Below are positions 11,074 through 16,277 of a stretch of DNA of 33,514 nt, in pieces. Made by a program: the position numbers and the translations under genes. The notes below the pieces were generated by a model. That model did not search any database. It worked only from the letters and a program-made list of their open reading frames with translations, and was not told the DNA's origin. This DNA comes from an uncultured Rhodobiaceae bacterium. Its GTDB lineage: Bacteria; Pseudomonadota; Alphaproteobacteria; Parvibaculales; Parvibaculaceae. Location of the stretch: assembly GCA_913057645.1 (NCBI GenBank), contig CAJXOU010000034.1, positions 1 through 33,514 of the forward strand, in the 5' to 3' direction. Position 1 is the stretch's first letter, and every line of letters starts with the position of its first letter.

Positions 11074-11149
11074 GGACGGTTAGCTCAGTTGGTAGAGCAC
11101 TGTGTTCACATCGCAGGGGTCACTGGTTCGAGTCCAGTACCGTCCACCA
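11074..11149 (+). tRNA. tRNA-Val (anticodon CAC)
   Basis: A 76-base cloverleaf. Acceptor stem GGACGGT pairs with ACCGTCC, the D arm is GCTC...GAGC, the anticodon stem is CTGTG/CGCAG with loop TTCACAT (anticodon CAC at 11107-11109), and the T arm is CTGGTTCGAGTCCAG. Discriminator A73 and an encoded CCA complete it. A35, C36 and A73 agree with valine identity. It decodes GUG, a frequent codon in this GC-rich genome. Confidence 0.96.
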
Positions 11150-12025: not shown

Positions 12026-12217
12026 GATTTTTTGTTCCGTGGCGGCGCAGGACCGTCCCGCGCACCGATCCCTTTATTTACACATCACATCCGTAATTAA
12101 TAATGAGCCAAGCTGTCGCACTATCGTTAATTGGTCATGAGGGGATCGTCTCCTAGACTGGCCGCCGAGTTGGGGACCCGGGGCGGGCCTCCAGGGCACT
12201 CAGTCCCGAGGCGGGGC

Positions 12218-14692
12218 ATGAAGGAAAAAGAACTCAGGATCGCGCTTGTCTGCTACGGCGGGGTGTCGCTTGCCGTCTACATGCATGGCGTGACCAAGGA
12301 AATCCTGAAGCTCGTGCGCGCCTCGCGGATCTACCACTACGACGTGGCCCGCTCGCAGCGCCGCTCGGCCAAATATCACGACATCGATCACGACGACCGG
12401 GAGACGGATACCGAAGCGCTCTATTTCGAGCTTATCCAGGCGATCGGCCAGTCGCTCGAACTGCGCGTCTTCGTGGATACGATCGCGGGGGCTTCCGCCG
12501 GCGGCATCAACGGCGTGCTGCTTGCCCGCGCACTGGCGCACGACCTGCCCATGGATTCGCACCGCAAGATGTGGCTCGAGCAAGCCGACATCGTGGCGCT
12601 GATGGACGAGAAGCATCTCGCCGGGCGCTGGGACAAGCTCTTCATGAAGCCGATCTTCTGGGGGCTCACCGACAAATGGCTCACGCGCTATGCGCCCGAC
12701 ATCGAGATGCGGCAGAAGCTGCAGATATTCACGCGCTCGCGCTGGTTCCAGCCGCCCTTCTCCGGTTCGATCATGAGCGGAATGCTGCTCGACGCCTGCA
12801 CGGCGATGGGCGAACCGGAGCCCGCCAAGGCGTCGCTGCTGCCGACAGGCCACCGGCTCGACCTCATCGTGTCGCTGACCGACTTCCACGGCTACAGCCA
12901 GAATATCCCATTGCACGATCCCGTTTCGATCCGCGAACGCGAACACCGGCACAGCCTGAAATTCACCTATTTCCAGCATCCCAGCGGCACCGTCGAAAGC
13001 GATTTCGATCTCGACCACGTACCGGGGCTGGTGTTCGCGGCGCGCGCGACCTCCTCCTTTCCCGGCGCCTTCCCGCCTGCCCGGATCGGAGAACTCGAAA
13101 CGGTGCTGAAGGACCGCGACGTCGCATGGCCGACGCGCGACGCCTTTCTGCGCAACAACTTCAAACCTCTGATCGCAGCCGGCGCAGACCCCGTGAAGGC
13201 GTCCTTCATCGACGGCAGCGTGCTCAACAACAAGCCCTTCGCCGAGGCGATCACGGCGATCCGCGGACGGCCCGCGTACCGCGAAGTCGACCGGCGCGTC
13301 GTCTATATCGATCCCGATCCGAAGGGCGGCCGCGTGGAAGCGGGCGGTGCGGCGCCCGGCTTTTTCCAGACCATCAGGGGCGCACTTTCCGACATCCCGC
13401 GCAACCAGCCCGTGCGCGACGAACTCGAATCCCTGCATGACTTTTCCGAGCGCGTCCGGCGCTATCGCCAGATCGTGGCGGCGACGCGACCGCATGTTCG
13501 CGCGCGCATCGTGCAACTTTTCAACGGCAATGACGGCGCGCTGCCGAGTGCCGAAGAACTCGCAAAACTGCGCAACAGGGCCAATGCCCAGGCAGCCGTC
13601 GAAGCGGGCTATGCCTATGACGCCTACATCCAGCTCAAGGTGTCGTCGGTTCTCGACCAGATCACCAATATCGTCGCCACGCTCAGCGAAGCCGTGCATC
13701 ACCCGAGCGACCGGCTGGCGCTTTCGCGCGCGGTCGAGACATGGGCCAAGGAGAATGGAATCTTCCCCGTCCAGTGGGCGGTGCATGCGGCGGAGGGAAC
13801 GGAACCCAGCAAGGAAGATGCCTGGGTGCGCTTCCTGCGCGAATTCGATGTGAACTTCCGCGTGCGGCGGCTTCGTTTCGTGATCCGGCGGCTGAACGAG
13901 CTCTATCAGAACATCGACGCGGCCGAGAATCCGGACTACGACCCCGATGTTCTCGACGACTTCAAGGCGAGTCTCTACCGGAATCTCGAACGCTTGCAGT
14001 CGGAGACGGCGCGGCGGCTCAGGAACGAGCAGACACGCGAACTCTGCAAGGCGATCTACGACGACGGCATCGCCGAGCCGCACGAGATCGACGGGTTCAC
14101 GGCTCATGTCGCGCCGGAACTCAACCTTGTCGGACTCGACAAGGAGATCGATGCGAGCTTCGTCGAGATGACGGCTCTGCCGCTGCCGCTCGAAATCCGG
14201 TCCGAACTCGTGCAGGCCTATATCGGCTTCCCGTTCTTCGACGTGCTGACGCTGCCGCTCAACAAGTGGCAGGACCTCGACGATGTGGCCACGGTGCAGG
14301 TCGACCGGATCAGCCCGGAGGATGCGCGCGCGATCCGCGAAGGCGGCGCGCCGGCGACGCTGATGGGCCGCGATCTCGGCTACTTTGCCGCCTTCTTCAG
14401 CCGCCGGGCCCGCGAAAACGACTATCTATGGGGACGGCTTCATGCCGCCGACCGGCTGGTCGATATCGTGGCGTCGAGCGCGCCGGTCGCGATCCAGAAA
14501 TCCGGACTCGACCTTTCAAAACTGAAAGCGCGGCTCTTCCGGTCGATCCTGAAGGCGGAAAAGGCGCATCTCGACCACGTGCCGGAACTCTTCGCCGACC
14601 TCGAACGCGAAATCCGTATCCGCTTCGGCGAGGAAGAAGCGCCTCCCGCCGAGGATGCCGACGGCGAGACGCTATCTCCGCAGAACGCCTGA
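12218..14692 (+). CDS. Large patatin-related protein (patatin + DUF3376)
   Basis: A protein of 824 residues. The N-terminal patatin phospholipase-like domain (about 5-350) has an oxyanion-type loop CYGGVSLAVYMHG, the nucleophile elbow GASAGG with Ser93, and the dyad Asp332 in IDGSVLNNKPF. The third position of the dyad motif is S rather than the usual G (DGS for DGG/A). The C-terminal half, rich in Arg and Leu helices, matches the extension known as DUF3376 in the 'patatin-related protein' group. No signal peptide or membrane helix is apparent. These proteins are presumed lipid acyl hydrolases. Start at 12218 puts the patatin strand at residue 6 with GAGGCGGGGC upstream. An earlier in-frame ATG at 12131 would add 29 residues without family resemblance. 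Confidence 0.88.
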   Translation: MKEKELRIALVCYGGVSLAVYMHGVTKEILKLVRASRIYHYDVARSQRRSAKYHDIDHDDRETDTEALYFELIQAIGQSLELRVFVDTIAGASAGGINGVLLARALAHDLPMDSHRKMWLEQADIVALMDEKHLAGRWDKLFMKPIFWGLTDKWLTRYAPDIEMRQKLQIFTRSRWFQPPFSGSIMSGMLLDACTAMGEPEPAKASLLPTGHRLDLIVSLTDFHGYSQNIPLHDPVSIREREHRHSLKFTYFQHPSGTVESDFDLDHVPGLVFAARATSSFPGAFPPARIGELETVLKDRDVAWPTRDAFLRNNFKPLIAAGADPVKASFIDGSVLNNKPFAEAITAIRGRPAYREVDRRVVYIDPDPKGGRVEAGGAAPGFFQTIRGALSDIPRNQPVRDELESLHDFSERVRRYRQIVAATRPHVRARIVQLFNGNDGALPSAEELAKLRNRANAQAAVEAGYAYDAYIQLKVSSVLDQITNIVATLSEAVHHPSDRLALSRAVETWAKENGIFPVQWAVHAAEGTEPSKEDAWVRFLREFDVNFRVRRLRFVIRRLNELYQNIDAAENPDYDPDVLDDFKASLYRNLERLQSETARRLRNEQTRELCKAIYDDGIAEPHEIDGFTAHVAPELNLVGLDKEIDASFVEMTALPLPLEIRSELVQAYIGFPFFDVLTLPLNKWQDLDDVATVQVDRISPEDARAIREGGAPATLMGRDLGYFAAFFSRRARENDYLWGRLHAADRLVDIVASSAPVAIQKSGLDLSKLKARLFRSILKAEKAHLDHVPELFADLEREIRIRFGEEEAPPAEDADGETLSPQNA

Positions 14693-14696
14693 GGCA

Positions 14697-15197
14697 TCAA
14701 TCCTTGCCGATCGAGATTTGCCGGCTGGCCGGTTTCGATCCCGGCTTCTTCGGCATCGTCACCGTCAGCACGCCCTTGTCGAACTTCGCGCCGATCTTTG
14801 CGTCGTCGACATCGGACGGCAGCGTGAAGACGCGCTGGAAGCTGCCATAGTGACGCTCCACGACACGGGCCGCGTCCTTCTCGTCCTTCTTCTCATAGCG
14901 CTTTTCGCCCTTCAACGTCAGCACGCCGTCGTGAACGCTGAGGTCCATATCCTTCTCGTCGAGGCCGGGAAGCTCCGCCTCGAGCAAATAGGCTTCGCCG
15001 GTTTCATGGAGATCGATGCGCGGCGTGAGGGCGCCGGTTCCAAACCGGCCGAACGCGGGGACATCGAGAAAGCCCGTCTTCCGCCCGAAGGCGCGATCGA
15101 TGAGGCTGTTCATCTCCTCACGGAAGGCGGAAAAGGGATCGTGTGAGAAAAGGCTCGTTTCCTTGCGCTCTTCGTTCTTCGAGACTTGATTGGCCAT
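14697..15197 (-). CDS. Hsp20-family small heat shock protein
   Basis: A protein of 166 residues. A phenylalanine-containing N-terminal arm (FSHDPFSAFREEMNSLIDRAF) is followed by an alpha-crystallin domain of about 100 residues (PRIDLHETGEAYLLEAELPG ... KFDKGVLTVTMPKK). A C-terminal I-x-I motif (ISI in RQISIGKD) docks subunits into oligomers. It is an ATP-independent holdase in the cytoplasm. Start at 15197 follows AAAGGAG at six bases. That ribosome site is buried in a predicted fourU-type hairpin (15204-15223), so translation is likely heat-induced. It converges with the patatin-like gene four bases after the latter's stop. The upstream alpha/beta hydrolase gene on the same strand ends 60 bp before it. 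Confidence 0.95.
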   Translation of the reverse strand: MANQVSKNEERKETSLFSHDPFSAFREEMNSLIDRAFGRKTGFLDVPAFGRFGTGALTPRIDLHETGEAYLLEAELPGLDEKDMDLSVHDGVLTLKGEKRYEKKDEKDAARVVERHYGSFQRVFTLPSDVDDAKIGAKFDKGVLTVTMPKKPGSKPASRQISIGKD

Positions 15198-15203
15198 CGT
15201 CTT

Positions 15204-15223
15204 CTCCTTTCGGACCAAAAAAG
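15204..15223 (-). promoter_or_regulatory. Candidate fourU RNA thermometer over the hsp20 ribosome site
   Basis: On the minus-strand mRNA, CUUUUUU (15223 side is the 5' end, 15222-15217 being the six U) can pair with AAAGGAG (15210-15204) across a six-base loop GGUCCG. All seven positions pair: C-G, U-A, U-G, U-G and three U-A. UUUU against AGGA with two wobble pairs is the defining feature of fourU thermometers. The start codon lies six bases downstream. Confidence 0.6.
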
Positions 15224-15257
15224 CACTTCCAGATCAGCACGCGGGCACAATGCCCTT

Positions 15258-16277
15258 TCAAGATTTATTGTCCCATTCGCCTTTCGCAAGAGAGCCGCAA
15301 CGCCGCATGTCGCCGCCGTCGCCGGAGGGGAGCTCTTTCTCACGGTTTTCGATCCAGGCCGCGACGTCGCGCCACACCACTTCGCGTTCGAGGTCGCGCA
15401 GGAGCATGTGGTAGCCGCCGGGGTAGCAGATCGCCGTGACATTCACATGTGCGTCACGCATCGCGCCGAACGCTCCAGTGACCGCATCGGGAGGCACGAT
15501 CTCGTCCTTGCCGCCGTAGAGAAGAAGCACCGGCACCCGGATTTCCGGCGCCGCGCCATAAGCCCTATCCATCAACCCTACCAGCCCGTAGAGCGTATCG
15601 ATCCGGGTCTCCTTGATGACAAGCGGATCCCGGCCGAGAGCGCGCAGCATCTCGATATTGTCAGAGGGCCAGATTTCGAGACCGCGGCCGGTGAGCGTCG
15701 CCGAGGGTGCGAGGTGGGCGGCGGTCCAGAGCGTCGCGGCATAGAGGCGGTTCAGATTTTCCCATCCCCAGACGGCAGGCGCGGCAAGAATGAGCCCGTC
15801 CACCTCGGGCGGCTCGGGGAGCGTCATCGTACGCATGGCCACCGCACCACCCATGCTGATGCCGAGAAGATAGACGGGAAGGCCCGGATGCTGTTCGCGT
15901 ACCAGCTTCACCAGTGTGGCTGCGTCTTCCGCCATGCGTGCATCGCCCGCCCACAGGCCCCGGCCAGGCGCACGGCCGAAGCCACGCTGATCGACCGCGT
16001 AGAGCGTGACACCCTGCTCCGCGAGCCAGGGTCCGGGCCCCGGCGCGGCAAAGGCATTCGAGTAGTCGTTGAAACCATGCAGCGCGAGGATGACGGCGCG
16101 CGGCCTTTCCGCCGCGAAGACAAGCATGGGCAAGCGGGCGCCGTCGGCCATGACCGCGCGGGCGGCGGAAGCGCGTTCGATGCGCGGCTGGAAGACCGGA
16201 TCGCCGACCGTCATCATCTGCGGCGCGCAGGCCGAGAGAGACATGACAAGAAGAAAGAGCGGGAGGATGCGCGACAT
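15258..16277 (-). CDS. Alpha/beta hydrolase, monoacylglycerol-lipase-like lipoprotein
   Basis: A protein of 339 residues. The N-terminus is a lipoprotein signal with lipobox LSAC (lipidated Cys17), so it should be membrane-anchored on the periplasmic side. The serine hydrolase fold shows the oxyanion strand LALHGFNDYSNAF (about 64-76), DQRGFGRAPGRG, nucleophile Ser141 in GISMGGA, Asp258 in YGGKDEIVPP and His290 in YPGGYHMLLRD. The order and spacing match lysophospholipase / monoacylglycerol lipase relatives. The precise ester substrate is unknown. It lies upstream of hsp20 on the same strand, and its last codons overlap a CTTGAAA sequence that might be part of the hsp20 promoter. Confidence 0.9.
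   Translation of the reverse strand: MSRILPLFLLVMSLSACAPQMMTVGDPVFQPRIERASAARAVMADGARLPMLVFAAERPRAVILALHGFNDYSNAFAAPGPGPWLAEQGVTLYAVDQRGFGRAPGRGLWAGDARMAEDAATLVKLVREQHPGLPVYLLGISMGGAVAMRTMTLPEPPEVDGLILAAPAVWGWENLNRLYAATLWTAAHLAPSATLTGRGLEIWPSDNIEMLRALGRDPLVIKETRIDTLYGLVGLMDRAYGAAPEIRVPVLLLYGGKDEIVPPDAVTGAFGAMRDAHVNVTAICYPGGYHMLLRDLEREVVWRDVAAWIENREKELPSGDGGDMRRCGSLAKGEWDNKS

Follow-up and report, generated by a model that had tools for sequence, protein, structure and literature searches.

RNA thermometers most commonly act on small heat shock genes according to the available text of one account (PMC4166951), and the described systems with which the present locus is compared here are the FourU elements of the agsA type, the ROSE-like leaders of Pseudomonas ibpA and the hsp17 thermometer of Synechocystis. 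For the Pseudomonas ibpA leaders, a protective role of hairpin I for the mRNA is suggested in the accessible part of PMC3669281, and ROSE-G, marked by the sequence CUGCU, is described for ABC transporter genes in the excerpted text of PMC12857270. On the transcriptional side, the RpoH1 promoters of S. meliloti are given as CTTGAA-N15-16-CCTATAT in the portion of PMC4843759 that was available. In the literature covered, which mostly excludes subscription papers, we found no paper joining Parvibaculum with an RNA thermometer. We analysed a stretch of 33,514 nucleotides from an uncultured Rhodobiaceae bacterium (the window), in which a first-pass annotation had read the ribosome binding site (SD) of an hsp20 gene as one arm of a fourU-type thermometer. 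The account that we tentatively prefer as a whole, at a little below even confidence, is that hsp20 has a sigma32-type promoter and a two-stem leader, that its heat control is mainly transcriptional, and that any thermosensing by the leader is at most modest and not of the fourU class.

The gene behind the ribosome site proved to be what the annotation had taken it for. Its product matches PF00011 in Pfam (E 3.7e-23) and has the alpha-crystallin domain of a genuine Hsp20; the ORF as listed by the program carries an upstream TTG start. The window belongs to a 3.75 Mb draft genome that is Parvibaculum-like, the closest named relatives being Parvibaculum MAGs. Some Hsp20 match was present in 17 of the 27 genus genomes searched, and the ortholog used here in 12 of them, the window's genome included. 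The 12 leaders compared below are thus those of the window and 11 genus orthologs, with 5′ starts placed by hand; L038–L043 are the same contigs as L003–L008 and were counted once. In one of the orthologs, L017 (G017:C8), the match is split in two separate pieces, as if the gene were broken. The end motif of the hydrolase gene, HML[LM]RD, was found no more than 420 nt upstream of hsp20 in 14/14 loci (12/12 in the genus and 2/2 in other genera of the family). A gene for a patatin-like protein with DUF3376 (12131–14692, plus strand) converges with hsp20, leaving 4 bases between the gene ends, and a tRNA gene lies at 11074–11146 (plus strand). The window's genome also holds a second, distant Hsp20 gene, L002 (G000:C25), with CTTGAA upstream followed by CCCAAATAT. 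From these elements, L002 is possibly heat-shock controlled too; an Rfam search of this locus at E up to 1 gave no thermometer. The features of the locus are collected in Table 1.

Table 1. Features of the hsp20 locus and its leader, in coordinates of the window
Feature	Position	Strand	Basis
-35 element CTTG	15287..15290	-	genus promoter pattern
-10 element AATAAAT, sigma32-type	15263..15269	-	inside 3′ end of upstream gene
Alpha/beta hydrolase gene (Hydrolase_4, PF12146)	15258..16277	-	ORF, Pfam; same strand, 5′ of hsp20
Hairpin I, GGGCA-UUG-UGCCC	15243..15255	-	folding; at putative mRNA 5′ end
U tract CUUUUUU, arm of proposed fourU	15217..15223	-	sequence, alignment
UUGGUC, 5′ arm of start-region helix	15213..15218	-	RNAalifold consensus, nine leaders
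UCC, inside proposed fourU loop	15212..15214	-	predicted partner of SD GGA 15207-15205, GAAA loop
GGUCCG, loop of proposed fourU hairpin	15211..15216	-	sequence
Ribosome binding site (SD) AAAGGAG	15204..15210	-	sequence; aligned SD in relatives
GGCCAA (G of ATG and part of codons 2-3), 3′ arm	15190..15195	-	RNAalifold consensus, nine leaders
hsp20, start codon ATG at 15197; 166-aa small heat shock protein	14697..15197	-	ORF, Pfam, genus orthologs

The promoter pattern CTTG-N17-[CA][AC]TA[GA]A[TC] occurs in 9 of the 12 genus leaders, and in each of them the spacer is 17 nt, the search having allowed 14–20. Background strand from three genus genomes gave one match in 2.4 Mb, to be read in the light of the pattern having first been derived from the same leaders. 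In the window the promoter sits within the 3′ end of the hydrolase gene. The pattern was absent from both loci of other genera, L013 and L014 (0/2), and from the 200 nt searched upstream in L017, where hairpin I is nevertheless strong and the SD helix has 8 bp; in L010 and L011, CTTG is present and the second element is a near-miss by eye. CTTG at -35, a CCTATAT-like -10 and fixed spacing, the marks of an alphaproteobacterial sigma32-type promoter, were all found, and groES of the window's genome has CTTG-N18-CCTATTT. This supports a resemblance to rhizobial RpoH sites at the level of sequence; set against the S. meliloti RpoH1 promoters, as far as the excerpt of PMC4843759 describes them, the genus promoter has a spacer 1–2 nt longer and a partly different -10. 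With a start 6–8 bases past the -10 element, the mRNA would begin at about 15255–15257, and its leader, about 58 nt long, would take in the U tract. A leader beginning downstream of the U tract, which would have undone the annotated hairpin, is thus not what the promoter predicts.

Near this putative 5′ end, a stem-loop folds within 32 nt in 12/12 leaders, and its sequence differs among them: the arms are GGGCA/UGCCC in the window, GGGUU/AACCC in L006 and GCGGGC/GCCCGC in L009. GC-rich DNA frequently forms stem-loops, and a z-score is therefore a fair measure of this stem (stem I). The mean z of the 12 leaders was -1.69, compared with -0.40 (sd 1.21) for a sample of 120 background genes taken at a comparable distance, and z was -1.5 or lower in 7/12 leaders versus 20% of the background. 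Averaged over the genus, stem I is thus more stable than in background genes, while in the window it is no stabler than its own shuffles, with z only -0.23. Two other readings of this region were set aside: an intrinsic terminator, rejected by eye because about 20 nt lie between hairpin I and the U tract, and a SAM-VI match at 15244–15307, taken as chance (17.4 bits against a cut-off of 57.5).

The alternative that survives best is that there is no RNA thermometer, which we regard as a serious candidate if still a doubtful one. The sigma32-type promoter alone would then control the heat response and stem I would stabilise the mRNA; the pyrimidine tract would be a single-stranded translation enhancer or functionless, and its complementarity to the SD an expected by-product. 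An ordinary cost of opening the SD speaks for it. In the window this cost was 2.0 kcal/mol at 37 °C and ranked at the 18th percentile of a background of 286 Parvibaculum genes with a scored SD; L003 stood at the 93rd percentile and the other ten leaders at the 7th to 73rd. Compared with shuffled upstream sequence, L003 alone fell below 5% (0.01–0.02 of shuffles reach its cost), and the cost in the window did not exceed that of shuffled leaders. The background gene starts, 99 in a first set and 286 in the larger one, were chosen by a simple rule on ORFs and SDs and not taken from annotation. As a yardstick, E. coli ibpA ranked at the 12th to 29th percentile and ibpB at the 43rd to 74th of the 99-gene background, and 12 ibpA-like leaders of Pseudomonas and rhizobia, counted as ROSE-type by motif alone and taken from 19 places after 7 weaker ones were omitted, ranked at the 16th to 73rd percentile of the 286 genes. 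The opening energy fails to separate ROSE-type from ordinary leaders and is an insensitive measure, so that the negative result for the window is a weak one; it was dropped as a test for thermometers after missing both the E. coli ibpA and ibpB leaders and the ROSE-type leaders.

Gap-free SD helices of at least 7 bp were found in 5/12 hsp20 leaders and 29/286 background genes (Fisher p 0.006), and helices of at least 5 bp in 9/12 and 107/286, respectively, with p-values that are too small because the leaders share ancestry. In the first comparison, with 99 genes, the helix given for the window is in another register and of equal length. The modest excess of long SD helices over background counts against the absence of a thermometer, as do the standing of small heat shock genes among thermometer targets (PMC4166951, in its available text) and the near-identity from U tract to SD between the two closest genomes, given below. 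In its favour, a pyrimidine tract in front of a purine-rich SD easily gives a helix that looks like a thermometer: at least 7 bp, as long as that of the window, occur in about a tenth of background genes.

We consider it unlikely that the leader is a true fourU, with UUUU and AGGA pairing when cool and melting on heat shock in the window species, its nearest relative L003 and perhaps L009. The helix that the first-pass annotation described does exist. CUUUUUU and AAAGGAG pair over seven bases at exactly the coordinates given there (C-G, U-A, U.G, U.G, U-A, U-A, U-A), the two wobble pairs make up the at least two G.U pairs expected of a FourU, and 6 nt separate the SD from the ATG at 15197. The isolated 20-mer adopts the fourU fold at 25–30 °C (-4.7 and -3.7 kcal/mol), which at 37 °C gives way to a 3-bp UCC/GGA hairpin (-2.7 vs -2.4 kcal/mol), and this too favours a fourU. 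In the leader from the putative start to codon 10, however, predicted fourU occupancy was 0.00 at seven temperatures for the window as well as for L003; among other fragments of the window, the highest value was 0.33, given by a single truncated fragment at 20 °C. Folding the leader at 25–45 °C, which the annotation had suggested, predicted no switch.

Nor was the pairing kept in most relatives, so that the outcome which the annotation had named as refuting, loss of the pairing in close relatives, largely holds. UUUU opposite AGGA with negative energy was found in 3/12 leaders, namely the window (7 bp), L003 (9 bp, UGCUUUUUU/AAAGGAGCA) and L009 (7 bp, with the register shifted by 3). L007, L011, L012 and L017 have just unfavourable versions of 4–5 bp, and L004, L005, L006, L008 and L010 have no UUUU-AGGA helix at all. 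The six-U tract is retained in L003 alone among the 11 relatives, which likewise argues for the absence of a thermometer. A nine-leader alignment, which leaves out L010, L011 and L012 with their unalignable tracts and served for RNAalifold and some of the shuffle tests, contained no double change in the fourU helix, and 500/500 shuffles do equally; in the 12-row alignment, two pairs with double changes were matched by 316/500 shuffles and the pairing level by 120/500. In both alignments the helix slid by 1–2 columns pairs about as well or better, a result that, together with covariation not above shuffles, also fits the lack of any thermometer. In one alignment, A3, a visible misalignment affects the SDs of L006 and L011. 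The pattern T6-N4..9-AAAGGAG occurs once in the window's genome and is unenriched in the genus, with 5 hits in 5 of 27 genomes against 11 for the reversed control. The window and L003 agree at all 23 aligned bases from GUGCUUUUUU through the SD, one inserted A aside, while they differ at 14/76 fourfold sites of hsp20. This identity hints at constraint from the U tract to the SD, and it would also fit ordinary conservation around a translation start. Low predicted occupancy and weak conservation led us to reject the fourU as the populated fold. Of the annotation's interpretation, the heat-shock gene, the heat-shock-type promoter and an SD able to enter a hairpin are supported, while the fourU register itself is not.

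At E up to 10, neither the window leader nor any of 14 loci matched Rfam FourU or ROSE. Across the genus, 4/27 genomes had weak FourU matches elsewhere, none over the cut-off and none in the window's genome; the FourU model is a weak test, having matched 1/14 control genomes, below the cut-off. Rfam ROSE matched 0/27 genus genomes, a weak result too, the control genomes being likewise unmatched, and was found in 1/20 loci of another set (L047, Bradyrhizobium). The ROSE motif U(U/C)GCU was present in 0/12 leaders and in 12/12 control leaders of Pseudomonas and rhizobia, and on this absence and the missing Rfam match we rejected membership in ROSE. ROSE-G was also rejected, since CUGCU upstream of the SD was seen by eye in L007 only, the window has GUGCU, and no motif is group-wide. 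A shared motif, CTTGRTC-N2..5-AAGGAG, was discarded as unenriched (18 hits in 27 genomes, 4 of them at hsp20, vs 23 for the reversed control).

The SD and the start region of the window have several other partners. In the minimum free energy folds of 15262–15190 and of the leader extended by 12 nt, UCC pairs with GGA of the SD and UUUUU (15222–15218) with GAAGA (15204–15200), and the latter 5-bp part disappears once 30 nt of coding sequence are added. At 37 °C the probability of UCC/GGA was 0.84–0.85 for leaders of 58–62 nt and 0.12 for those of 54–56 nt, and the predicted fold thus varies with the exact 5′ end. No covariation was seen for the UCC/GGA stem in the nine leaders. The RNAalifold consensus of these nine leaders pairs UUGGUC with GGCCAA, not the fourU arms. 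Such a helix would leave the SD in a 17-nt loop and block the start codon, like short thermometers that act mainly on the start codon, a mode of control that we think improbable here. Besides the consensus, it draws on a helix of at least 6 bp in 7/12 leaders versus 11/99 background genes, on one double change between the near relatives L004 (UUGGUC/GGCCAA) and L008 (UUGAUC/GGUCAA), which turns codon 2 from Ala to Val, and on predicted probabilities of 0.65–1.00 in L004, L005, L008 and L017. However, with leaders of at least 45 nt the helix is minor in the window (0.04–0.14), is 0.00 in L003 and reaches 0.01–0.36 in L006; only a leader cut to 32 nt brings it to 0.85 at 37 °C in the window. Its double changes were equalled in number by 168/500 shuffles, its 3′ arm falls in coding sequence, which is conserved for the protein, and no melting by 45 °C is predicted. 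We likewise give little credence to the idea that the hsp20 leaders of Parvibaculum represent a novel class of short thermometers with two stems, in which the SD and start codon would exchange weak pairings (U tract/SD, UCC/SD and UUGGUC/GGCCAA, of which the first could perhaps combine with the last in a pseudoknot) with no single fixed fourU or ROSE helix.

Elsewhere in the sample, L011 carries at about 1460–1500, upstream of hsp20, an SD helix of 8 bp, UUUUCUUG/CAGGAGAA, on which a CAUUCG...CGAAUG hairpin sits as a cap, with a predicted probability of 0.98–0.99 at 25–45 °C in the two longer fragments. As predicted, this isolated hairpin sequesters the SD better than that of the window, and L011 and L003 are the leaders with the most firmly paired SDs in the predictions. 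L079 and the sister-genus leaders L078 and L080 were inspected by eye and stand outside the counts. About 50 nt upstream of hsp20, L078 and L080 share a block, TCCTCCTATCAAGGGCTCGGGGCA, with CCTCCT complementary to the SD AGGAGG; the block may coincide with the mRNA start or precede it.

Taken together, the results are best explained by a model in which the promoter in the hydrolase gene would drive an mRNA whose short leader holds two structured regions. Stem I, kept in position and not in sequence, probably protects the mRNA or aids folding. Between the U tract and codon 3, the second region could engage the SD and start codon in one of three weak pairings that exclude each other: the GGA of the SD with UCC together with the U tract and downstream purines, the UUGGUC/GGCCAA helix, or the fourU pairing. 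Heat control would most likely lie mainly in transcription, with at most a modest, thermometer-like damping of translation at low temperature. For this model we counted the promoter, the mean z of stem I, the SD pairing in other registers, the long SD helices, the identity between the window and L003, and the likeness to Pseudomonas. Against it we counted the SD that is not unusually closed, the lack of a predicted switch at 25–45 °C, the low z of stem I in the window, the pairings of the second region, none of which covaries above shuffles, the dependence of the fold on the 5′ end, and the derivation of the promoter pattern from the leaders it was scored on. Computation shows the promoter motif, the stability of stem I on the genus average, the identity of the gene and the weak conservation of the fourU; promoter use, the mRNA start, what the stems do and any thermosensing are inferred. 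Most economically, the locus is an ordinary small heat-shock gene under sigma32-type control, and its short leader with two stems is possibly a weak RNA thermometer of unassigned class. If the leader does sense temperature, Parvibaculum would have a thermometer of a small heat shock gene that belongs to neither ROSE nor fourU.

Compared with FourU elements of the agsA type, as outlined in the available text of PMC4166951 and PMC11182007, the leader is alike in having at least four U that could pair with AGGA, two G.U pairs and a small heat shock gene downstream, and differs in that the pairing here is predicted to be unpopulated and is favourable in a minority of the leaders. One predicted fold of the window, with the SD and start codon in a single hairpin, recalls the Synechocystis hsp17 thermometer as described in part of PMC4477652; the pairing is imperfect here, and the likeness is one of description, not of sequence. 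The ROSE-like ibpA leaders of Pseudomonas, in the accessible part of PMC3669281, have a start codon predicted to be unpaired, whereas that of the window is partly paired. In other respects they resemble the present locus: both have a small heat shock gene, a sigma32-type promoter and an SD in the second stem, and the Pseudomonas leaders, 61–62 nt long with two hairpins of which the 5′ hairpin I is stable, are matched here by a likewise built leader of about 60 nt.
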